NCBI RefSeq assembly: GCF_021568905.1
Contig: NZ_JAKGSB010000001.1
Location: forward strand, 496,001 to 560,000
Origin: Zavarzinia marina
Lineage (GTDB): Bacteria; Pseudomonadota; Alphaproteobacteria; Zavarziniales; Zavarziniaceae
Length of the DNA stretch: 64,000 bases
Reading direction: 5' to 3'
The position numbers and the translations under genes were made by a program. The notes under the pieces are model-generated. The model saw nothing but the letters and a program-made list of their open reading frames with translations. It did no database searches and had not been told where the DNA came from. The first letter of the stretch is position 1, and every line of letters starts with the position of its first letter. Of this stretch, positions 4,181 to 37,977 are shown in pieces.

Positions 4181-5017
4181 ATGGAAACCAAGGATATCGC
4201 CGTTTTCGGCATCTTCCTCGCCGTCGCCTTGCTCGAAGCCTGTTTCACCGGCCTGATCGCGAAGAAGGAACAGAAGCCGGGCGACCGCAGGGTCGAGGTG
4301 CTGAGCCTCGGCGCGATGATGTTGATTTCCATGCCGCTGGCACTGGCCGGCGGGGCTTTCCTGGCCAGCCAGTTCGCGCCCCGGGATGCCCTGATCGGCC
4401 TGCCCGTGATCGCGCAGATCGCGATCCTGCTGATCTTCGACGACATGTTCCAATATTGGTGGCACCGCCTGTCCCATTCGGTGTCCTGGCTCTACAAGCT
4501 GCATCGGCCCCATCACAACGCCGAATACATGTCGGTGCGCATCGTCTATCGGAACAATTTCTTCTACTACCTGCTCATGCCGTCGCTGTGGCTGTCCGGC
4601 GCCTTGATCTTCCTCGGCCTCGGCCATGTCTATGCCATCTATGTGGTGGTCAAGATGGCGGTGATCATCGGCGCGCATTCGGACTTGCGCTGGGATGCGC
4701 CGCTCTATCGCATCAAGTGGCTGTCGCCGGTGATGTGGGTCGTGGAACGCACGATCTCCACCCCCGCGACCCACGCCGCCCACCACGGCAAGCATGCGTC
4801 CGACGGCGTCACCAACTACAAGGGCAATTTCGGCAACCTGCTGTTCTTCTGGGACGTGCTGTTCGGTACCGCCAAGATCACCCGGCGCTATCCCGAACAG
4901 TTCGGCGTCGAGAACCTGCCGCCGACGACCGTGAGCGAACAGATGCTGTGGCCCCTGTTCCGGGCGCCGGAAGAAACGATTGAAGAGGAACCGGTCGCGG
5001 TCCGCGCCCGGGCCTGA
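4181..5017 (+). CDS. Sterol desaturase / fatty acid hydroxylase family protein
   Basis: 278 residues, an integral membrane di-iron oxygenase family member. Hydrophobic segments occupy about 5-25, 45-70 and 75-95, with a further pair around 125-165. The His clusters of the family are present: HRLSH, KLHRPHHN and, near the C-terminus, HAAHHGKH. ATG 4181 (METKDIAVFG) is preferred over an in-frame ATG at 4148 because GGAG (4171-4174) stands 6 bases before it. The substrate (sterol, hopanoid, carotenoid or fatty acyl lipid) cannot be told. The divergent Crp/Fnr gene may regulate it. Confidence 0.85.
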   Translation: METKDIAVFGIFLAVALLEACFTGLIAKKEQKPGDRRVEVLSLGAMMLISMPLALAGGAFLASQFAPRDALIGLPVIAQIAILLIFDDMFQYWWHRLSHSVSWLYKLHRPHHNAEYMSVRIVYRNNFFYYLLMPSLWLSGALIFLGLGHVYAIYVVVKMAVIIGAHSDLRWDAPLYRIKWLSPVMWVVERTISTPATHAAHHGKHASDGVTNYKGNFGNLLFFWDVLFGTAKITRRYPEQFGVENLPPTTVSEQMLWPLFRAPEETIEEEPVAVRARA

Positions 5018-5543: not shown

Positions 5544-5577
5544 TTGTCTTCGGCGAAAATTAGGGTATAAACCCTAA
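5544..5577 (+). promoter_or_regulatory. CYP153 promoter with embedded palindromic operator
   Basis: TTGTCT (5544-5549), a 16-base spacer and TATAAA (5566-5571) form a sigma70-like promoter. The -10 element lies inside a perfect 7-bp inverted repeat, TTAGGGT-ATAA-ACCCTAA (5560-5577). A protein bound here would block RNA polymerase. The P450 start codon is 22 bases further on. The TetR regulator encoded after the P450 is the nearest candidate binder. Confidence 0.6.
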
Positions 5578-5599: not shown

Positions 5600-6904
5600 A
5601 TGGCACAGGCATCGGTTTCTACGACAGCGATTTCCCCCAATGCCGGTACCCCGAAGGCAGGCCCGGCGACGGCGGCGGTCCCCGATCCCTGGACCCTGCC
5701 CCTCGACAAGATCGACCCGAGCCGGCCGGAGCTCTATCTGAACAATGTCCACGGCGACTACTTCCGCCGCCTGCGTCAGGAAGACCCGGTGCATTTCACG
5801 GCCGAAAGCGCCTTCGGCCCGTTCTGGTCGCTGACCCGCTTCGACGACATCGTCGCGGCCGAAACCAACACCAAGGTGTTCTCGTCGGAGCCCTCGATCA
5901 TCATCGGCGATCCGACCGACGATTTCGTGCCGCCCATGTTCATCGCCATGGATCCGCCGATCCACGACGTGCAGCGTCGCGCCGCCTCGCCCGCGGTTGC
6001 CCCTCAGCGCCTGTCGGAATTGGAGGATCTGATCCGCCGCCGCGCCGGCGCCATCCTGGACAGCCTGCCGACCGACGAACCCTTCAACTGGGTCGACCGC
6101 GTCTCGCGCGAGCTGACCACCCAGATGCTGGCGACCCTGTTCGACGTGCCCTTCGAGGACCGCTACCTGCTGCCCTATTGGTCCGACGTCTCGACCGCGT
6201 CGGAAGCCGTGGGCGTGCCCGCCGACATGGCGGAGCGCCAGCGCATCCTCATGGAATGCCTCGCCTATTTCACCAGGCTGTGGCACGAGCGGGCGGCGGC
6301 CGAGCCGAAGTTCGACTTCATCTCGCTGATGGCCCACAACCCGGACACCAAGGACATGGTGAAGAACCCGCTGGAACTGGTGGGGAACCTGATGCTGCTG
6401 ATTGTCGGCGGCAACGACACGACCCGCAATTCGATCTCGGGGGGCGTCGTGTTCCTGAACCAGAACCCGGCCGAATACGACAAGCTGCGCGCCGACCCTG
6501 GTCTGATCACCAACATGGTCTCGGAGGTCATCCGCTATCAGACGCCGCTGTCCCACATGCGCCGCACGGTGAAGGAAGACGTCGTCTTCGGCGGCAAGCA
6601 GATCAAGAAGGGCGACAAGGTCGTGTTCTGGTACTGCTCCGGCAACCGCGACGAGACGGCGATCGACAATCCCGACGCCTTCCTGATCGACCGGCCGCGC
6701 GCGCGCCATCATATCTCCTTCGGCTTCGGCATCCACCGCTGCATGGGCAACCGCATGGCCGAAATGCAGCTCCGCGTGCTGTGGGAAGAGATCCTGAAGC
6801 GCTTCGACCGGGTCGAACTGGTGGCGGAGCCGAAGCGTGTGCTCTCCAATTTCGTCAACGGCTACGACGAAGTGATGGTGCGCCTGCACCCCAAGGCGGT
6901 CTGA
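5600..6904 (+). CDS. Cytochrome P450, CYP153-type alkane hydroxylase
   Basis: 434 residues, a soluble bacterial class I P450. The I-helix carries GGNDTTRNS near residue 270. The K-helix region reads EVIRYQTPLSHMRRT. The heme loop is FGFGIHRCMGNRMAE with the heme thiolate at Cys381, followed by LQLRVLWEEILKRF. The wording MFIAMDPPIHDVQRR and GIHRCMGNR is characteristic of CYP153 enzymes, which hydroxylate the terminal carbon of medium-chain alkanes using a ferredoxin and reductase. No ferredoxin/reductase partner lies next to it, so electrons must come from genes elsewhere. It has its own promoter with a palindrome and is followed by a TetR regulator. Confidence 0.9.
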   Translation: MAQASVSTTAISPNAGTPKAGPATAAVPDPWTLPLDKIDPSRPELYLNNVHGDYFRRLRQEDPVHFTAESAFGPFWSLTRFDDIVAAETNTKVFSSEPSIIIGDPTDDFVPPMFIAMDPPIHDVQRRAASPAVAPQRLSELEDLIRRRAGAILDSLPTDEPFNWVDRVSRELTTQMLATLFDVPFEDRYLLPYWSDVSTASEAVGVPADMAERQRILMECLAYFTRLWHERAAAEPKFDFISLMAHNPDTKDMVKNPLELVGNLMLLIVGGNDTTRNSISGGVVFLNQNPAEYDKLRADPGLITNMVSEVIRYQTPLSHMRRTVKEDVVFGGKQIKKGDKVVFWYCSGNRDETAIDNPDAFLIDRPRARHHISFGFGIHRCMGNRMAEMQLRVLWEEILKRFDRVELVAEPKRVLSNFVNGYDEVMVRLHPKAV

Positions 6905-8921: not shown

Positions 8922-10145
8922 ATGACGACGACCGCTTCCGCCCGTTCAGCCAATCCCCGTTCCGCCAATCTGGGCCTCGGCTTTTCCAGCATCGCCCATA
9001 GTTTCTCCCATCTCTTCACCCTGCTCTATGCGACGGTGGTGCTGGCGGTGGAGAAGGACTGGGGCCTGCCCTACGACACATTGGCCTGGGCTTCGATCCC
9101 GCTCTTCGTGCTGTTCGGCGCGGGCGCCATTCCCGCCGGCTGGCTGGGCGACCGCTGGAGCGCGCCGGGCATGATCGCGGTCTTCTTCGTCGGCCTGGGC
9201 GGTGCCGCCATCGCGACGGGTTTCGCGGACAATCTGACCCAGCTCACCCTCGGCCTCGCGGCGATCGGGCTCTTCGCCTCGATCTATCACCCGGTCGGCA
9301 TCGCCTGGCTTGTGCGCAATGCCGCCAATCGGGGCCGCGCGCTCGGCATCAACGGCATCTTCGGTTCGCTGGGCACCGCGGGCGCCGCCGTGGTCGCCGG
9401 CTTCCTGGCCGATCGTTTCGGCTGGCGCACAGCCTTCTTCGTGCCCGGCGCGATCTCGCTCGCGATCGGCATCGCCTTCATCGTCCTGATACGCCGGGGC
9501 CGCATCTTCGACGTCGCCCATGACGTCGCGCCGACCGCGGCGCCGGGCCGGGGCGAGGTGCGCCGCGTGTTCTGGGTGCTGTCGGTCACCATGCTGATGA
9601 CCGGGCTGATCTATCAGGCGACCTCGGTCGGCCTGCCGAAGCTGTTCGAGGAACGCGCGGGGTCCCTGGTCGAGGGTACCTTCGGCATCGGTCTTCTGGT
9701 CTCGGGCGTCTATGTCTTCTCGGCGCTCAGCCAGTTCGTCGGCGGCGAGATGGCGGATCGGTTCCCGCCGCGCATGGTCTATATGGCGGCACAGCTCGCC
9801 CAGATCCCGGTGATCCTGATCGCGGTCATGCTCTCGGGCTCGGCCCTGGTGGGCATGGCGGCGCTGATGATCTCGTTCAACGTGGTCGGCCAGCCGGCGG
9901 AAAATACCCTGCTGGCGAAATATACCCCGCCGGCCTGGCGCGGCCGCGCCTTCGGCGCGAAATTCGTGCTGACCCTCGGCGTGTCGTCCCTCGGCGTCAG
10001 CCTCGTGCCCATCATTCACCGCCTGACCGGATCGCTGGACGGGCTGCTGGTGGTGCTGTCCGGCTTCGCGGCCATCGCGGCCGCGTTCTGCATCATGCTG
10101 CCGGTCGACCGCCCCGCGCGGGAGGCGGTCGCCCCGGCCGAATGA
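8922..10145 (+). CDS. MFS transporter
   Basis: 407 residues with about 12 hydrophobic segments in two halves and a central charged linker (around 190-215, GRIFDVAHDVAPTAAPGRGE). The loop after helix 2 reads GWLGDRWSAPGM, a GxLxDR-type MFS motif, and the corresponding second-half loop reads GEMADRFPPRM. Stretches such as FASIYHPVGIAWLVR resemble the fosmidomycin-resistance-like/Fsr branch of MFS, so it may export a small compound. The substrate is unknown. It is convergent with metY. Confidence 0.85.
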   Translation: MTTTASARSANPRSANLGLGFSSIAHSFSHLFTLLYATVVLAVEKDWGLPYDTLAWASIPLFVLFGAGAIPAGWLGDRWSAPGMIAVFFVGLGGAAIATGFADNLTQLTLGLAAIGLFASIYHPVGIAWLVRNAANRGRALGINGIFGSLGTAGAAVVAGFLADRFGWRTAFFVPGAISLAIGIAFIVLIRRGRIFDVAHDVAPTAAPGRGEVRRVFWVLSVTMLMTGLIYQATSVGLPKLFEERAGSLVEGTFGIGLLVSGVYVFSALSQFVGGEMADRFPPRMVYMAAQLAQIPVILIAVMLSGSALVGMAALMISFNVVGQPAENTLLAKYTPPAWRGRAFGAKFVLTLGVSSLGVSLVPIIHRLTGSLDGLLVVLSGFAAIAAAFCIMLPVDRPAREAVAPAE

Positions 10146-30582: not shown

Positions 30583-31467
30583 TCAGGCGAAGCTGAAGTC
30601 GAGGCCGATGTCGAGGGACGGGGCCGAATGGGTCAGCCAGCCGAGCGACAGCATGTCGACGCCGCTGGCGGCATAATCCGCGACCATCTCGGGCCGGATA
30701 CCGCCCGAGGCTTCGGTGATCATGCGCCCGCCGACCATGGCGACCGCCTGGCGCAGCACCTCCGGGCCCATGTTGTCGAGGAGCACGGCATCGACCGGGC
30801 GTTTCATCAGGACCGCGAGCTGGTCGAGGCTGTCGACCTCCACCTGGACCTTCACCATATGGCCGACCCTTCCGCTCTTAAGCCGGTCGAGCACGGCGTC
30901 CAGCCCGCCGGCGGCGGCGATGTGGTTGTCCTTCACCAGGATGCCGTCGTCGAGGCCGAAGCGGTGATTGATGCCGCCGCCGACGCGGACGGCATATTTC
31001 TCGATCGCGCGAAGGCCCGGCGTGGTCTTTCTGGTGCAGGCGACGCGGGCACCATGGCGGGCGGCGGCCTCGGCGGCGCCGCGCGTCACCGTGGCGATGC
31101 CCGACAGGCGCTGCAGGATGTTGAGGGCGACGCGCTCCCCGGTCAGGACGGCGCGGGCCGGGCCCTCGACGACGGCGACGACGTCACCCGCCTTGGCGTC
31201 CGATCCATCCGGCAGGCGCACCTCGACCGCGATCTCGGGCGAGACCAGGCGGAAGGTCTCGACGGCCATGGGCAGGCCGGCGACGCGGCCGTCGTGACGG
31301 AAGCGAACTTCGGTCCGGGCCCGCGCCGTCGCCGGCACGGTCACTTCCGAAGTGAGGTCGCCGGCAAGGCCCAGATCCTCGGCCAGGGCTGCCTTCAGCA
31401 GCGATTCATAGACGAGGAACGGCGGCGGGCTGACGTCGAGCATGAGACTGGATCCGGAAGAGGTCAT
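30583..31467 (-). CDS. nadC: Nicotinate-nucleotide diphosphorylase (carboxylating)
   Basis: 294 residues. Converts quinolinate and PRPP to nicotinate mononucleotide, the third step of de novo NAD synthesis. Family marks: LKAALAEDLGLAGDLTSEVT, ERVALNILQRLSGIAT, CTRKTTPGLRAIEKYAVRVG, NHRFGLDDGILVKDNHIA, TEASGGIRPEMV and GVDMLSLGWLTHSAPSLDIG. ATG 31467 overlaps the nadB stop (ATGA), so nadB and nadC are translationally coupled. An internal Met at 31443 is a less likely start. Confidence 0.95.
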   Translation of the reverse strand: MTSSGSSLMLDVSPPPFLVYESLLKAALAEDLGLAGDLTSEVTVPATARARTEVRFRHDGRVAGLPMAVETFRLVSPEIAVEVRLPDGSDAKAGDVVAVVEGPARAVLTGERVALNILQRLSGIATVTRGAAEAAARHGARVACTRKTTPGLRAIEKYAVRVGGGINHRFGLDDGILVKDNHIAAAGGLDAVLDRLKSGRVGHMVKVQVEVDSLDQLAVLMKRPVDAVLLDNMGPEVLRQAVAMVGGRMITEASGGIRPEMVADYAASGVDMLSLGWLTHSAPSLDIGLDFSFA

Positions 31468-33092
31468 TCGGCGGCGAGGCGGCTGACCGCCGACAGGCCG
31501 ATGGTGTCGAGATGAGCGCCCGTCGCGTCGAGGGTCACGGTCTGGCGGCGCAGCCACAGGGGATCGGCCGCCGGATGGTCGATGCGGGCATGCGCGCCCC
31601 GGCTTTCGGTGCGCGACAGCGCCAGCAGGGCGACCAGCCGGCCCACGGTGACCAGATTGCGCAGCTCGACGGCGGCCCGGATGGCGGTCAGGTCACCGCC
31701 GTCCGTGGACGCGCGCGCCGCGGCGTCGATCTCGCGCGCCAGCCCGTCGAGCCCTTCGAGGGCGCGGCGCAGGCCCGCCTCGTCGCGCAGCATGCCGACG
31801 TCCGCCATCATCTGGCGGCGCAAGCGGGCGCGGAGCGGGGTCGCGACGGCGGGCGCGATCGAGGGCGCTTCGGCGACCGGCGGCAGGGTGCGGGCGACGC
31901 CCGCACCGTCGACCAGCATGGCAAGCGCGGTACGCCGGCCGGCGACGCAGGCTTCGAGCAGGGAATTGGAGGCGAGACGGTTGGCGCCGTGAACGCCGGT
32001 GCCCGAAACCTCGCCGCAGGCATAGAGGCCGGGCAGGGTACTGCGGCCTTCGCCGTCCACCATCACGCCGCCCATGTGGTAATGGGCCGCCGGGGTAACC
32101 GGCACGGGATCGGCGAAGGGATCGAGGCCGGCGGCGCGGCAGGTTTCGATCGCCTGCGGGAAATGGGCGGCGCCGTCACCGGCGAGCGCGGGGCGAAGGT
32201 CGAGATAGACGCGGCCGTTGGCGCGGATTTCGGCGTCGATGGCACGGGCCACGACGTCGCGCGGGGCGAGATCGCCCTGGGGATGCTTGCCGGCCAGCAG
32301 CGGGGTCTTGGCGTCGGCGGCCAGCAGGCGGGCGCCGGCGCCGCGCAGCGCCTCGGTCAGCAGGGGCAGGGGTTCCTGACCATCCGCCAGCAGGGCGGTC
32401 GGGTGGAACTGCATGAATTCCAGATCGACCAGGGTGGCGCCGGCGCGGGCGGCCAGGGCCAGGCCGTCGCCCGTCGCCTCCGGCGGATTGGTGGTATGGG
32501 CCCAGAGCCCGCCCAGACCGCCGGTCGCCAGCATGACCCGGCGGCAGCGGATCACCATGGCACCTTCGGCGTCCTGGACCGCGAGGCCGGCGACATGGCC
32601 GCCGTCGACCAGCAGGTCGGTGGCGATGGTCTCGGCCATGACCGTGATCGAGGGCGTGGCACGGACCCGCGCGGCCAGCGCGGTCACGACGGCACGGCCC
32701 GTGCGGTCGCCGTCGGCATGGGCGACGCGGGCGCAGGAATGGGCACCCTCGCGCCCCAGCAGCAGGTCGCCGGTGGCGGGGTCGACGTCGAAGGGCACGC
32801 CCAGGTCGCGCAGCACGGCGATGGCCTGGGGGCCGCCGTCGGTCAGGCGCGCGACGGCGACGGGATCGCACAAGCCGTCGCCCGCCGCCATGGTGTCGCG
32901 GGCGTGATCGGACGGGCGGTCGCCCGTACCGATCGCGGCCGCGATGCCGCCCTGGGCGTGCAGGCTGGAGCCGCCCTCGATGCCGGCGGTCTTGGTGACC
33001 AGCACCACGCGCCGGGGCGCGAGGCTCAGGGCCGCCGACAGGCCGGCGAGGCCGGAGCCGACGATGACGATATCCGCATCGAACTGGCGCAT
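31464..33092 (-). CDS. nadB: L-aspartate oxidase
   Basis: 542 residues. An FAD enzyme that oxidises aspartate to iminoaspartate, the substrate handed to NadA. The dinucleotide-binding loop is VGSGLAGLSAALSLAP. Other marks: GGSSLHAQGGIAAAI, the active-site region EFMQFHPTAL, HYHMGGVMVDGEGRSTLPGL and CGEVSGTGVHGANRLASNSL. The C-terminal helical domain ends near SRLAAE. ATG 33092 has GGGAG 8 bases upstream; the longer frame reads back through nadA and is not real. Order nadA-nadB-nadC on one transcript. Confidence 0.95.
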   Translation of the reverse strand: MRQFDADIVIVGSGLAGLSAALSLAPRRVVLVTKTAGIEGGSSLHAQGGIAAAIGTGDRPSDHARDTMAAGDGLCDPVAVARLTDGGPQAIAVLRDLGVPFDVDPATGDLLLGREGAHSCARVAHADGDRTGRAVVTALAARVRATPSITVMAETIATDLLVDGGHVAGLAVQDAEGAMVIRCRRVMLATGGLGGLWAHTTNPPEATGDGLALAARAGATLVDLEFMQFHPTALLADGQEPLPLLTEALRGAGARLLAADAKTPLLAGKHPQGDLAPRDVVARAIDAEIRANGRVYLDLRPALAGDGAAHFPQAIETCRAAGLDPFADPVPVTPAAHYHMGGVMVDGEGRSTLPGLYACGEVSGTGVHGANRLASNSLLEACVAGRRTALAMLVDGAGVARTLPPVAEAPSIAPAVATPLRARLRRQMMADVGMLRDEAGLRRALEGLDGLAREIDAAARASTDGGDLTAIRAAVELRNLVTVGRLVALLALSRTESRGAHARIDHPAADPLWLRRQTVTLDATGAHLDTIGLSAVSRLAAE

Positions 33093-33121: not shown

Positions 33122-34150
33122 TCAGCGCCGGCCGACAGCGATCATCCGTTCGACCGCCAGGCGGGCGCGATCGGCCACCTGGGGATCCACTTCCACCCGG
33201 GGTTCCAGGGTTTCGAGGGAATGCAGGATCTTGGGCAGGGTGATCTTCTTCATGTGCGGGCACATGATGCAGGGGCGGACGAATTCCGTCGTCGGCGAGG
33301 CGGCGGCGATATTGTCCGACATGGAGCATTCGGTGATCATGAGGACGCGCGGCGGCTTCTCGTCGCGGACATAGTCGATCATCTTGGCGGTGGAACCGGC
33401 GAAATCGGCTTCCGCGATCACCTCGGGCGGGCATTCCGGATGGGCGATGACGATCAGGTCGTCATAGGCGCGGCGGAAGCGGCGGATCTCGGCGGGCGTG
33501 AACCGCTCGTGAACCTCGCAATGGCCCTTCCAGGTCAGGATCTTCACCTTGGTCTGGGTCGCGATCCAATTGGCCAGATATTCGTCCGGCAGGCACAGCA
33601 CGCGCTCCGCCCCCAGGCTCTCGACCACTTCGACCGCATTGCCCGAGGTGCAGCAGATGTCGCTTTCCGCCTTCACCTCGGCCGAGGTGTTGACATAGGT
33701 GACCACCGGCGCATCCGGATAGGTTTCGCGCAGCAGGCGGATGTCGGCGGCCGTGATGGATTCCGCGAGCGAGCAGCCGGCGCCCATGTCGGGCATCAGC
33801 ACGATCTTCTCGGGGTTCAGCAGCTTCGCCGTCTCGGCCATGAAGTGGACGCCGGCCATGACGATCACATCCGCGTCCGTCTCGGCGGCGCGCTTGGCGA
33901 GCGCCAGGCTGTCGCCGACGATGTCGGCGACGCCGTGGAAGATCTCGGGCGTCTGGTAATTGTGGGCCAGGATGACCGCGTTCTTTTCCTTCTTCAGGCG
34001 GTTGATGCGCGCGATGAAGGGGGCGTGCTGGCGCCACTCGTCCTCCGGCAGGACCCGTTCCATCTTGGACCAGATGCCGGCGGTCGCGGCGGCCACTTCG
34101 GGGGTGAAGGGCAGGGCGGTGGCGAATTCGGCCTGAGCATTCATGTTCAT
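33122..34150 (-). CDS. nadA: Quinolinate synthase
   Basis: 342 residues. Condenses iminoaspartate with dihydroxyacetone phosphate to quinolinate using a [4Fe-4S] cluster. Cluster and substrate motifs: [36 protein letters not shown] (first Cys), HPECPPEV (second) and CIMCPHMKK (third). It depends on Fe-S assembly, which the isc operon in this same window can supply. It is the first gene of nadABC, read from a promoter about 80 bases upstream that carries two palindromic operator-like boxes (34201-34243). Confidence 0.96.
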
Positions 34151-34200: not shown

Positions 34201-34258
34201 ATGCTCAACTTGAGCATATTCTAGATATGCTCATATCGAGCATAATCAAGCCTGTCAA
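34201..34258 (-). promoter_or_regulatory. nadABC promoter with two palindromic repressor boxes
   Basis: On the minus strand, TTGACA (34258-34253), 17 bases, then TATGAG (34235-34230) form a near-consensus promoter. Box 2 (34227-34243, ATGCTCATATCGAGCAT) covers the spacer end and the -10. Box 1 (34201-34217, ATGCTCAACTTGAGCAT, a perfect dyad) lies just past the expected start of transcription. The centres are 26 bp apart. This layout suits repression by a dimer. A NadQ-type regulator encoded at 36895-37977 is the likely binder. Confidence 0.75.
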
Positions 34259-34328
34259 GAAAATGTCGTCTTGTGGGATGGGCCGCCGGTCAGGGTTTCC
34301 GCGGGTGCAGGGCTGAAACGGGAAGGGT

Positions 34329-34355
34329 GCACCGCACCCCGTCAGGGTGCGGTGC
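34329..34355 (-). terminator. Hairpin after the BVMO-like gene
   Basis: A perfect 11-bp stem (GCACCGCACCC, 34329-34339, with 34345-34355) lies just past the monooxygenase stop on the minus strand. The following bases are only partly T-rich (CCCTTCCCGTTTC), so it is a moderate terminator candidate. Confidence 0.5.
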
Positions 34356-34362
34356 CGAAGAT

Positions 34363-35868
34363 TCAGCTGTAGACGAATTCCGCGCCGTCGAGGTCGATGG
34401 CGGGCAGGGTCTTGCGTTCGGTCCAATAGTCCTGGGTGTGCTGCCATTCGGGCTTGTCGCCGCGCTTCGGCAGCAGATGCATGGAGCGCATCAGATAGCC
34501 CGGATTGAAATTCTCGTCGTCCATCCACGGCAGCAGCGGCATGTTGGAATCCTGGGGCCGCAGCCTGACCTCGACCTTATGCGCGCCCTTTTCCTTCATG
34601 TGGTTCAGCAGCCGGCAGACGAAATCGCCGATCAGATCGGCCCTGAGCGTCCAGGAGGCGCGAAAATAGCCGAAGATCCAGACGAGGTTCGGCAGGCCCG
34701 TGAACATCATGCCGCGATAGGTGACGCTCTCGGCGAAATTCAGCGGCGCGCCGTCCACCGTGAAGGCGATGTCGCCGAGGACGCTGAGGTTGAAGCCGGT
34801 CGCGGTGACGATGATGTCCGCCTTCAGGTCCTTGCCGGATTTGGTGCGGATGCCGGTCTCGGTGAAGGTTTCGATCTCGTCGGTGACGACGCTGGCCTTG
34901 CCCGACTTGATGCCCTGGAACAGGTCGCCGTCGGGCACGAAGGCGACGCGCTGCTGCCATGGCCGGTAGCGGGGCGTGAAGTGCTCCTTCACCGTTTCGT
35001 CGTCGAGATAGCCGCGCACGCCGTTGATCAGGAATTCCTTCATGGTGTCCGGCTGTTCAAGGCACAGCCGGGTCAGTTCCGCCTGATCGTGCAGGATCTT
35101 GCGCCTCGTGATCTCGTGGATCCAGGCATCATCGACCTCGAGCGCGCGGAGCTGTTCCGCCATGTCGTTGATGTTCTGCGCCGGCACGAAATAGGTGGGG
35201 GATCGTTGAAGCAGGGTGACATGCTTCGTCTTGCCGGCGATCGCCGGCACCAGGGTCGCGGCCGTGGCGCCGGAGCCGATGACCAGCACCTCCTTGTCGG
35301 CGTAGTCCAGATCTTCCGGCCAGGTCTGGGGATGGACGATGGTGCCCTTGTAGCGGTCCATGCCCGGCCAGTCCGGGGTGTAACCCTTTTCGTGGCGGTA
35401 GTAGCCTTGGCACATCCACAGGAACGGCGTGGTGAACCGCAGGCTCTCGCCCGTGTCGCCGCGCGTAACCTCCAGGGTCCAGAGATTGTCGGCGCTCGAC
35501 CAGCTTGCAGATTTGATCCTGTGGCGATAGCGGATATGGGCGTCGATGGCGTTTTCCTCGATCACCTCGCCCATGTATTTCAGGATTTCCTCGGCGGTGG
35601 CGATGGGGGCGCCGGTCCAGGGCTTGAAACGATAGCCGAAGGTGAAGAGATCGCTGTCGGAGCGGATGCCGGGATAGCGGTGCGTGGTCCAGGTGCCGCC
35701 GAAGGTGTCGAGACCCTCCAGGATCACGAAACTGGTGCCCGGGCATTGGCTCTTCAGATGATAGGCGCCGCCCACGCCCGAAATGCCCGCGCCGACGATG
35801 ATGACGTCGAAATGTTCGGCCGGCGCGGTCTCTCGATCGACCGTCCGGGCGAGTGCTGCCGTTGCCAT
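34363..35868 (-). CDS. Flavin-containing monooxygenase, Baeyer-Villiger type
   Basis: 501 residues. FAD-binding GxGxxG loop near the N-terminus (VIIVGAGISGVGGAYHL), NADPH-binding loop VLVIGSGATAATLVP near residue 195, and the Baeyer-Villiger fingerprint YKGTIVHPQTWPED (F/YxGxxxHxxxWP) just before it. Such enzymes insert an oxygen atom into ketones or oxidise N/S centres with NADPH and O2. The close match to EthA-like proteins (GGTWTTHRYPGIRSDSDLFT, FGYRFKPW) is by recall only. ATG 35868 has GAGGGAGG upstream. A palindrome 40 bases upstream may be an operator. It could extend the hydrocarbon oxidation capacity begun by CYP153. Confidence 0.88.
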   Translation of the reverse strand: MATAALARTVDRETAPAEHFDVIIVGAGISGVGGAYHLKSQCPGTSFVILEGLDTFGGTWTTHRYPGIRSDSDLFTFGYRFKPWTGAPIATAEEILKYMGEVIEENAIDAHIRYRHRIKSASWSSADNLWTLEVTRGDTGESLRFTTPFLWMCQGYYRHEKGYTPDWPGMDRYKGTIVHPQTWPEDLDYADKEVLVIGSGATAATLVPAIAGKTKHVTLLQRSPTYFVPAQNINDMAEQLRALEVDDAWIHEITRRKILHDQAELTRLCLEQPDTMKEFLINGVRGYLDDETVKEHFTPRYRPWQQRVAFVPDGDLFQGIKSGKASVVTDEIETFTETGIRTKSGKDLKADIIVTATGFNLSVLGDIAFTVDGAPLNFAESVTYRGMMFTGLPNLVWIFGYFRASWTLRADLIGDFVCRLLNHMKEKGAHKVEVRLRPQDSNMPLLPWMDDENFNPGYLMRSMHLLPKRGDKPEWQHTQDYWTERKTLPAIDLDGAEFVYS

Positions 35869-35908
35869 GATCTGGCCCTCCCTCGATATTCTTGTGCGGC
35901 GACAAAGG

Positions 35909-35922
35909 TGACGCCTGCGTCA
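35909..35922. promoter_or_regulatory. Palindrome upstream of the BVMO-like gene
   Basis: TGACGC-CT-GCGTCA is a perfect 6-bp inverted repeat, 41 bases upstream of the monooxygenase start codon and next to an A/T-rich tract. Position suits an operator; the binder is unknown. Confidence 0.35.
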
Positions 35923-35950
35923 TTTTTATCGGCCGAGCCTAACAGGGGCC

Positions 35951-35964
35951 ATGATCGAGATCAA
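35951..35964. promoter_or_regulatory. FNR/FixK-like box between BVMO and transglutaminase genes
   Basis: ATGAT-CGAG-ATCAA (minus strand TTGAT-CTCG-ATCAT) matches the TTGAT-N4-ATCAA anaerobox with one mismatch. It is 83 bases from the monooxygenase start and 100 from the transglutaminase start. A chance match is possible. Confidence 0.35.
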
Positions 35965-36063
35965 TCGGCGCGGGCGGAGCATGGGCTGGCGGCAAACGCG
36001 CACTGGTCATCGGCGCCCGGCTTTGCGGTAATCGGAAGGCCGGTTTCGGTTGGAGAGTCCTCG

Positions 36064-36891
36064 ATGCGTTTTTCCGTCAGCCATGAGACGCGCTACCGCT
36101 ATTCGGTGCCGGTCGGTTTCGCGCCCCATGTCATCCGTCTGTCGCCGCGCCCCGACAGCGGTACGGTGCTGTTCCAGGCGATCGAGGTCGAGCCATTGCC
36201 CCTCGTGCGCGACGATCTGCTGGACCGCTACGGCAATCCCTTCACCCAGGTCAGTTTCGCGGGGCTGGCCGACCTGCTTCGGATCGAAAGCCGCTTCGAG
36301 GTGTTGACCGGCCTGTCGCGTCCGCCCGTCGGCCTGCTGCCACCCTTGCCCTGGCCGATCGATTTCGAGGGCGATCTGGCGCCCTATCTGGCGGGCGACG
36401 GGATCGAGCATACGGTGCGCCACTTCGCGGCCGAGCTGGCCGGCGCCGCCGGCTGGGACGCCCTCGGCTTCCTGAACCGCCTGACCGAGACCCTGTTCGC
36501 CCGGACCGACCGCCACGTCAGGATCGACGGCAACGCCCAGACCCCGGCCCATACGCTGGCGAGCGCGCGGGGCGCCTGCCGCGACCTGACGGTACTGTTC
36601 ATGGCGGCCTGCCGCAGCCTCGGCATGCCGGCGCGCTTCGTCAGCGGCTATCAGTCGGAGGCGGAGAGTGTCGATGGCCAGCGCCATCTCCATGCCTGGC
36701 CCGAGGTACATCTGCCGGGCAGCGGCTGGTACGGCTTCGACCCGACCCATGGCCGCGCGGTCGGCGACGGCTATGTGGCACTCGCCGCCGCCCCGGACCA
36801 GGCCGCCACCATGCCGGTCGAGGGCGGCTTCTACGCCAATGGCGTCACCGTCACCCTGGATTACCGGGTGACGATCTCGACCAGCGCCTGA
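36064..36891 (+). CDS. Transglutaminase-like cysteine peptidase family protein
   Basis: 275 residues. N-terminal beta-rich bacterial transglutaminase-like domain (MRFSVSHETRYRYSVPVGFA through SRFEVLTG), then the papain-like core with catalytic Cys172 (ARGACRDLTVLFMAACRSLG), His210 (RHLHAWPEVHL) and Asp226 (YGFDPTHG). The full triad suggests an active peptidase or amidase. GGAGAG (36053-36058) precedes ATG 36064. Proteins of this kind often accompany Anbu peptidase with ATP-grasp and alpha-E proteins; here the Anbu gene is 16 kb away. Its stop is 3 bases from the NadQ stop (convergent). Confidence 0.87.
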   Translation: MRFSVSHETRYRYSVPVGFAPHVIRLSPRPDSGTVLFQAIEVEPLPLVRDDLLDRYGNPFTQVSFAGLADLLRIESRFEVLTGLSRPPVGLLPPLPWPIDFEGDLAPYLAGDGIEHTVRHFAAELAGAAGWDALGFLNRLTETLFARTDRHVRIDGNAQTPAHTLASARGACRDLTVLFMAACRSLGMPARFVSGYQSEAESVDGQRHLHAWPEVHLPGSGWYGFDPTHGRAVGDGYVALAAAPDQAATMPVEGGFYANGVTVTLDYRVTISTSA

Positions 36892-36894
36892 GGC

Positions 36895-37977
36895 TCAGCC
36901 GCTGATCTTGGGCAGGGGCAGGGGGATGCCGACGTCGTGCTTCTCCTGCATGACGTCGCGGCGGAAGCGGTAGGTTTCGGCCGGGCGGCCCCGGCCGGAG
37001 GTCTCCAGCTGGCCGGTCGCCTCGACCAATTCGCCGGCGATCACGGTGCGGCGGAAATTCTGCTTGTGGACTTCGATGCCCGACAGCGCCTCCACGACTT
37101 TCTGGAGCCGCAGCAGGGTGAATTCGGGGGGCAGCAGGTCGAAGACCACGGGGCGATAGTCGATCTTGCCGCGCAGCCGGCCGAGTGCCGAGGCCAGCAC
37201 CCGGCGATTGTCCAGCGCCATGGAATGGCCGAGTGCGCGGGCGGCGGCGAGCTGTTCCGGCGGGGTCACGGGCACCGGCGTGCCCTTGGCCTGGGCGACC
37301 ACCACGCCGTCGCGGATCGCTTCCTTCACGAGGCCTGCGGAATAGAGCAATTCGTAGCGATCGAGGCAGCGCAACAGGTCGAAATGGGCGGTGCCGGCGA
37401 CCGGGCCGAAGGCGATCGCCGCCCGTTCCATGCGGGCGCGGGCCGTGCGGGCGTCGGGGGCGGCGTCGATCCAGCGGGTCAGGGCCGGGCGGATCACGCC
37501 GTCGATGACGTCGGGCCGGCCCTTCCGCCAATCTTCCCACGGCAGGAAGGAATACCACGAGCGCCATTCCGCCTCGCCGCTGCCGGCCAGCGGCATTTCC
37601 TGGCCGAGCGCCAGATAGGCGACGGAGACCACGCGGGGGCCGCCCAGCAACTCGCGGGGATCGCGGTTCTCGTTGGCGAAGGTATAGAGCTGTTCGACAT
37701 AGCGAAGGCCGATACCGGTCTGTTCCGCCACCCATTGCCGAAGCCCGAGTTCGAGGGTGCGGTGGTGTTCCGGCACGAAGGGGCCGAAGGGCAGGGTCTC
37801 GGGCGTGTCGAAGGTCGGCGGCAGCAGGCCCTGCTGCGCCGGGGTCGCGAGATCATGGGTCATGCGCCGGGCGACCAGCACGCGCGGATCCTCCTCCGTC
37901 ACCGCGACGATGACGGCGGTCAGGCCGATGCTGACCCCGCGCTGATTGTGGTCCCCGACAGGGGATTGTTCGACCAT
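36895..37977 (-). CDS. nadQ: Nudix-like domain/winged-helix regulator, probable NadQ
   Basis: 360 residues. Residues about 15-60 and onward look like a degenerate Nudix domain (GLTAVIVAVTEEDPRVLVAR, then PFVPEHHRTLELGLRQWVAE, QTGIGLRYVEQLYTF). It lacks a full Nudix box (Gx5Ex7REUxEE), so hydrolase activity is unlikely. The C-terminal part (about 235-345, LGRLRGKIDYRPVVFDLLPP, EFTLLRLQKVVEAL, HKQNFRRTVI) is the winged-helix found in NrtR/NadQ-like regulators. NadQ was predicted by comparative genomics to repress nadABC in Alphaproteobacteria. Its position 2.7 kb from the nadA promoter with paired palindromes supports the call. GAGGGGAG precedes ATG 37977. Confidence 0.75.
   Translation of the reverse strand: MVEQSPVGDHNQRGVSIGLTAVIVAVTEEDPRVLVARRMTHDLATPAQQGLLPPTFDTPETLPFGPFVPEHHRTLELGLRQWVAEQTGIGLRYVEQLYTFANENRDPRELLGGPRVVSVAYLALGQEMPLAGSGEAEWRSWYSFLPWEDWRKGRPDVIDGVIRPALTRWIDAAPDARTARARMERAAIAFGPVAGTAHFDLLRCLDRYELLYSAGLVKEAIRDGVVVAQAKGTPVPVTPPEQLAAARALGHSMALDNRRVLASALGRLRGKIDYRPVVFDLLPPEFTLLRLQKVVEALSGIEVHKQNFRRTVIAGELVEATGQLETSGRGRPAETYRFRRDVMQEKHDVGIPLPLPKISG

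Follow-up and report, generated by a model that had tools for sequence, protein, structure and literature searches.

The DNA analysed here (the window) is a 64,000-nucleotide stretch of Zavarzinia marina (contig NZ_JAKGSB010000001.1, positions 496,001 to 560,000) that harbors the genes for de novo synthesis of nicotinamide adenine dinucleotide (NAD), nadA, nadB and nadC, together with nadQ, the gene of a Nudix-like winged-helix regulator. The three biosynthetic genes lie close together on the minus strand, their family assignments are clear, and they presumably form one operon. nadQ is co-directional with nadA and lies 2.7 kb upstream of it; directly before nadA, two dyads (O1 on the promoter side, O2 on the gene side) accompany a promoter-like site. 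In window coordinates the features are:

30583..31467, minus strand: nadC, quinolinate phosphoribosyltransferase (TIGR00078, 294.8 bits, cut-off 198.4); overlaps the nadB stop; start read by eye, the profile scan having begun at 31470
31464..33092, minus strand: nadB, L-aspartate oxidase (NCBIfam NF005701, 560.5 bits, cut-off 528); start at 33092 assigned by eye, the profile scan having begun at 33074
33122..34150, minus strand: nadA, quinolinate synthase (Pfam NadA, 3.3e-116; NCBIfam NF006878 and TIGR00550 above cut-off)
34201..34217, minus strand: predicted operator O2, the gene-side NadQ dyad; reads ATGCTCAAGTTGAGCAT; centre 26 bp from that of O1
34227..34243, minus strand: predicted operator O1, the promoter-side NadQ dyad; reads ATGCTCGATATGAGCAT on the coding strand; covers the -10-like element
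34230..34235, minus strand: -10-like element TATGAG inside O1, 17 bp from the -35 element; kept within O1 in 7/7 family upstreams; putative activity
34253..34258, minus strand: -35 element TTGACA of the putative nadABC promoter, recognized by sequence; kept in 7/7 family upstreams
36895..37977, minus strand: nadQ, Nudix-like winged-helix regulator of 360 amino acids (Pfam NrtR_WHD; PDB 7q91 NadQ; predicted fold)

By sequence and by modelled fold, the regulator of the window is NadQ (COG4111). In a phmmer search the protein encoded at 37977-36895 matched PDB entry 7q91, "NADQ transcription factor", with an E-value of 2.9e-66, and the alignment, in two stretches (residues 60-221 and 249-356 of 360), covers most of its length. 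Pfam recognizes the winged-helix domain NrtR_WHD (PF21906, 6.4e-20). A Nudix domain gave no Pfam match at E 0.001; the predicted structure nonetheless matches NadQ and Nudix proteins, in line with the preliminary description of the locus, which had seen a degenerate Nudix/winged-helix protein 2.7 kb away from the promoter. An AlphaFold2 model from an 18-row alignment (predicted local distance difference test 81.9, predicted template modelling score 0.85) returned chains of the Agrobacterium NadQ (7q91-7q94, 36-40% identity) at ranks 1-14 of a Foldseek search, followed by AraR and then NrtR. The four entries, released in 2022, are the native protein and its ATP, NAD and DNA complexes (PDB). Identity with NrtR itself was rejected. 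The NrtR family (3gz5, 3gz6) shares a homologous winged helix and the Nudix-like fold, but identity in the fold search is about 20%, the NCBIfam NrtR model NF050029 gives 66.6 bits against a cut-off of 400, and the window protein has no Pfam Nudix match. The traits of the NadQ family are thus found together at this locus: homology over most of the length, an NrtR-related winged helix behind an N-terminal domain that differs from NrtR's, dyads at nadA and a gene near nadABC.

The two 17-bp dyads are perfect, ATGCTCAACTTGAGCAT at 34201-34217 and ATGCTCATATCGAGCAT at 34227-34243, and their centres (34209 and 34235) are spaced by exactly 26 bp. On the minus strand the promoter-like site consists of TTGACA (34258-34253), a gap of 17 bp and TATGAG (34235-34230). 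With up to one mismatch the dyad pattern matches twice in the window against 0.17 expected, a count of two being reached in 1/100 shuffles. Throughout the 3.95 Mb genome the O1/O2 pair is the only exact occurrence of ATGCTCN5GAGCAT, and likewise of ATRCTCN5GAGYAT. The paired ATGCTC...GAGCAT dyads at 26-bp spacing over the promoter, as first described, are therefore real, being also the only exact genomic copies. They fit the consensus ttATRCTCannntGAGYATaa given for the NadQ family (COG4111) in PMC5343134 (2016), where nadABC was predicted as the core regulon; the statement that NadQ had earlier been predicted to control nad genes is borne out by the available text of that article. It describes the same regulator family, dyad consensus and nadABC targets, with nadQ near nadABC. 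NadQ control of nad genes is thus already known in kind, and the window feature is a further case of this regulon. Agrobacterium NadQ itself is the subject of Minazzato et al. 2022 (J Struct Biol 214:107917), a study cited on NadQ in PMC11452294.

Conservation among close relatives is strict. Each of the six genus genomes, own included, holds exactly two exact dyads, and all twelve lie at nadA. In all seven family upstreams TTGACA, O1 with the centre GATAT and the 26-bp spacing are unchanged; O1 is identical throughout, its non-palindromic centre included, and O2 keeps its position relative to O1 with variable centre letters. The preliminary description would have fallen had close relatives failed to conserve the dyad at nadA; the opposite was found.

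The dyad also follows the regulator. In 60 genomes (own included) 28 nadA upstreams were found; a dyad with up to one mismatch within 600 bp is present in 16/16 with NadQ vs 0/12 without. In further genomes, among the nadA matches listed (up to one mismatch, 400 bp), the counts are 69/72 with NadQ vs 1/46 without. These 118 upstreams derive from 100 of 103 listed additional nadA places plus 18 loci, and 9 of them are at least 90% identical to upstreams of the discovery set described below. In the class sample of 385 genomes, 96 have a NadQ match, which in three (G050, G293 and G338) covers the winged helix only; 157 have a nadA match at E 1e-40. G009 and G022 have NadQ, and nadA was not found in their assemblies; G009 carries a dyad with a T-run at a contig end, so that its nadA may just be unassembled. 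With NadQ recognized by sequence and fold, the published consensus fitted, the sites conserved and their presence tracking that of NadQ, the proposal that the dyads are NadQ operators has held up. The link between regulator and operator is supported by comparative genomics and a solved homologue, and we are highly confident that this region controls a de novo NAD operon under NadQ.

Could the dyads serve another regulator, for instance of the NrtR type, with nadQ a neighbour by chance? nadQ does lie 2.7 kb off with two unrelated genes between, and an NrtR-like winged helix occurs in one genus member (G004, second match). However, the dyad follows NadQ across genomes and fits the published NadQ motif, and nadQ adjoins nadA in sister genus G006, where the nadQ match ends at 5577 and the nadA match starts at 5729, as well as directly at many distant loci. 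We regard the other-regulator explanation as very improbable. Genus members differ in the distance from nadQ to nadA (about 1.5 to 6.7 kb), and in the sister genus about 150 bp separate the two genes. Since this distance varies, the flavin monooxygenase-like and transglutaminase-like genes found between nadQ and nadA in the window (34363-36891) are not constant components of the module and probably stand outside it.

Several observations nevertheless weigh against control by NadQ as outlined here. The preliminary description spoke of a near-consensus promoter; this holds for the perfect TTGACA and the 17-bp gap, but the wording is too strong for the -10, since TATGAG agrees with TATAAT at 4/6 positions and is without the final T. 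With up to two mismatches the genome contains 155 matches to the dyad vs 43 for the reversed pattern and 56 with the halves swapped, so there may be weaker NadQ sites elsewhere. No second nad target appears among the six 1-mismatch genome matches (L003-L008): L004 sits between DUF1302 and SMP-30-like genes, where there is no nad gene, and the remaining five fall within long open frames. Autoregulation of nadQ in the window is unsupported, as the genome has no exact dyad at nadQ. Among the further genomes, 3/72 NadQ-positive cases are without a nadA dyad, and the NadQ-negative G342 has one in an assembly that is 83% complete. In the discovery set described below, NadQ-positive L103 likewise has no dyad at nadA, nor does L142 in the 400 bp before its aligned start. 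Finally, an NAD complex (7q93) exists beside the ATP complex (7q92), so NAD is a candidate effector too, although ATP is the most likely one.

Binding by this NadQ, promoter activity, the start site, the ATP response and repression are all part of the following proposal. Transcription would start near 34223, which would place O2 at about +6 to +22. One NadQ dimer would sit on each dyad, with O1 over the -10 region and O2 over the first transcribed bases. Bound NadQ would prevent RNA polymerase from engaging the promoter or escaping from it, and nadABC would be off, possibly with the full repression suggested in the preliminary description, until an effector in the Nudix-like domain, most likely ATP, released NadQ and let the operon be transcribed. 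ATP is said, in the abstract of the Agrobacterium NadQ study by Minazzato and co-workers, to suppress DNA binding. With no terminator in the window, the block would most likely act on initiation and early escape.

Comparison beyond the family revealed two architectures of NadQ sites at nadA. They and the fixed distance from T-run to operator reported below are the new part of this work. For the discovery set one upstream was kept per identical 60-base stretch, which left 95 distinct nadA upstreams; 81 of them have at least one dyad. In close pairs, to which the window belongs, the centres are 22-28 bp apart with no terminator between the sites. In long pairs they are mostly 52-77 bp apart. A search of the 385 class genomes for exact close pairs found 10. 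Their centres are separated by 24-28 bp, although the pattern permitted 22-52, and all 10 lie at nadA, including 5 outside the family. Mapped onto a 79-row NadQ tree, the close-pair label requires 3 changes, compared with a shuffled mean of 19.3 and 0/500 shuffles as low (labels of rows dropped as copies in the discovery set were transferred by hand). Of the 22 close-pair rows 21, window NadQ included, fall into one group of 23 rows (support 81/93). A single origin of this close-pair clade is likely; it was drawn open, and some branches are long. Outside the group, 40/56 rows have the terminator, and terminator-bearing rows include records titled Acidobacteriota, Gemmatimonadetes and Marinimicrobia, metagenome assemblies whose placement needs care.

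Two further sets of loci may be described here. In nine close-pair loci (L093, L095, L097, L100, L106, L120, L130, L143 and L167) nadQ and nadA diverge from a shared operator pair, and there, unlike in the window, nadQ may be autoregulated. L296, from the 77% complete genome of class member G017 in which neither NadQ nor nadA was found, has exact dyads at 4190-4206 and 10127-10143, each with a T-run 11-12 bp upstream. The first lies, by eye, shortly before the gene of an ATP-binding cassette (ABC) transporter solute-binding protein. These dyads may mark another target, another regulator, or chance.

Most long pairs hold a GC-rich hairpin with a T-run between the operators, in the order promoter/O1, hairpin, O2. 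A terminator detector was designed after inspection of the discovery set by eye and applied unchanged to a held-out set. This set excludes every upstream without a dyad and the 9 that share at least 90% identity with a discovery upstream. In the discovery set it found a terminator in 29/31 long-spaced upstreams, with 15-20 bp from T-start to O2 in 29/29, in 12/24 single-site upstreams (11 at 15-20 bp, 1 at 79) and in 1/26 close pairs, at 65 bp and outside the pair. Shuffles gave 64/620, 40/480 and 18/520, respectively, at any distance. Held-out long-spaced pairs had a terminator in 17/25 cases, all at 16-20 bp, and held-out close pairs in 0/7. Single-site upstreams showed little signal there (8/29; 3 at 15-20 bp, 1 at 21, 4 farther). 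Held-out shuffles yielded 102/1250 long, 104/1450 single-site and 11/350 close at any distance, and 7/1250, 5/1450 and 0/350 at 15-20 bp.

Pooled, 67 of the 142 dyad-bearing upstreams (110 bp scanned) gave a detection on the sense strand, compared with 4/142 on the other strand and 2/135 downstream of O2. In 61 of the 67 the gene-side site follows the T-start at 15-21 bp (at 18 bp in 28 of them); the other 6 lie elsewhere. Across the 46 two-site cases the standard deviation from T-start to O2 is 1.0, a figure bounded by the 15-21 bp class limit, so all 67 distances were listed separately. From O1 to T-start, measured from the nearest site, it is 11.5 (6.8 without one outlier). The same picture emerged from a pattern search that relied on neither the detector nor nadA. 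An exact dyad with TTTTT 0-30 bp upstream occurs in 46/385 genomes, vs 2 for the reversed pattern, and the gap is 9-15 bp in 28/30 distinct cases of dyads in nadA sense, a few of which are close pairs or three-site upstreams; the remaining dyads comprise 3 on the opposite strand at nadA and 19 elsewhere with spread gaps. A known riboswitch or leader RNA was not found: at gathering score, Rfam gave 0 matches in 12 loci totalling 75,189 bases, namely the locus of the window, a second close-pair locus and 10 relatives whose sites are spaced differently.

L098, L104 and L238, two of them Kiloniella records, have three dyads upstream of nadA. Bases past their T-run could pair with bases preceding it, and an alternative RNA structure in these leaders is possible.

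In long pairs the second half-site reads TAGCAT or TAGTAT in 36/46 O1 sites and 0/61 O2 sites, and a TTGA-like -35 lies within 20 bp of O1 in 41/46 (shuffles 394/4600); in close pairs such a half-site occurs in 3/33. Because the TAG-type half-site and the TTGA-like -35 coincide at O1, O1 is likely the promoter of long pairs, the half-site change turning half an operator into a -10 box. This bears on a simpler explanation of the hairpin, namely that it terminates the upstream gene only while O2 carries the real nadA promoter. nadQ is indeed often co-directional and upstream, intergenic terminators are common, and the sense-strand bias of the detector would be expected here too. Against this explanation, the hairpin follows a promoter-like O1 in all 46 two-site cases, its spacing to O2 is tight relative to that from O1, and O2 lacks the TAG-type half-site. 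Furthermore, the nadQ match ends at least 0.6 kb before O1 in L092, L110, L111, L116, L123, L131, L138 and L145, so in these eight loci the hairpin is not simply the nadQ terminator. We consider a terminator serving the upstream gene alone unlikely.

The long-spaced architecture itself is well supported, and its geometry suggests that NadQ on O2 may act as a roadblock coupled to intrinsic termination, with O1 also blocking initiation. If NadQ behaved like LacI, polymerase would halt about 5 bp before it reached the edge of the operator. Assuming a NadQ footprint that reaches 2 bp past either end of the 17-bp core (21-bp consensus), the halted RNA end would lie about 11 nt after the T-start, in or just past the T-run, where the hairpin could release polymerase. 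The fixed distance from T-start to O2, combined with a variable one from O1, speaks for such coupling. On the other side, a NadQ-independent terminator would also lower expression with NadQ off, and no terminator was detected in 38 single-site and 10 long-spaced upstreams. Some of the latter (e.g. L207) do show one by eye, with a loop exceeding the detector limit. We give roadblock-coupled termination in the long-spaced relatives a chance just short of even. The broader view, in which the nadA leader of many NadQ lineages would work as a repressor-gated terminator and the clade of the window instead keeps close operators on the promoter, is put forward more tentatively.

Roadblocks as such are known: LacI, CodY, CcpA, PurR and GalR halt polymerase from a site downstream of the promoter (PMC4132739, PMC10310618). 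In E. coli, leakage past a LacI roadblock is far higher when the block lies 30 bp from the start than when it lies 102 bp away, and slightly higher at 60 bp with weaker promoters (PMC4132739). Polymerase moves at most 25 of the 30 bp before reaching LacI, and retention of sigma70 was suggested as a possible cause of the leak (PMC4132739). The 30-bp data were fitted better by easier dislodgement of the repressor than by reduced removal of polymerase (PMC4132739), which speaks against the coupling proposed here. Stalled polymerase is freed by Mfd and possibly Rho according to the review PMC10310618, in whose available text the word "intrinsic" is absent; since that text names Mfd and possibly Rho only, coupling to an intrinsic terminator would be new.

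Unlike the known roadblocks, the long-spaced NadQ relatives have a terminator-like element at a fixed distance before the operator. In RNA polymerase I terminators of the Reb1/TTF-I type, too, a DNA-bound protein is preceded at a short fixed distance by T-rich sequence; these terminators are eukaryotic and stand at the end of the transcription unit. In the literature searched, with Minazzato et al. 2022 outside its scope, we found no bacterial repressor coupled to an intrinsic terminator, no nadA leader terminator, no split into two architectures and no fixed distance from T-run to operator. The nearest case is H-NS (PMC4337669), a DNA-bound bacterial protein that pauses RNA polymerase and aids termination, as proposed for NadQ; in the text available, however, the H-NS filament is linked to Rho-dependent sites and is not a metabolite-responsive repressor at one operator. 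For NadQ, the available text of PMC5343134 gives a single consensus and makes no mention of paired-site spacing classes or an inter-site terminator.

For the window, our results provide a confident assignment of regulator, operators and operon for NAD supply in this lineage. If the proposal for the long-spaced relatives is true, a repressor bound about 18 bp past the T-start would decide whether an intrinsic terminator works. This would be a new way to tighten a promoter-proximal roadblock, where close LacI leaks (PMC4132739), and a mode of control between repression and attenuation for the NAD genes of several phyla.

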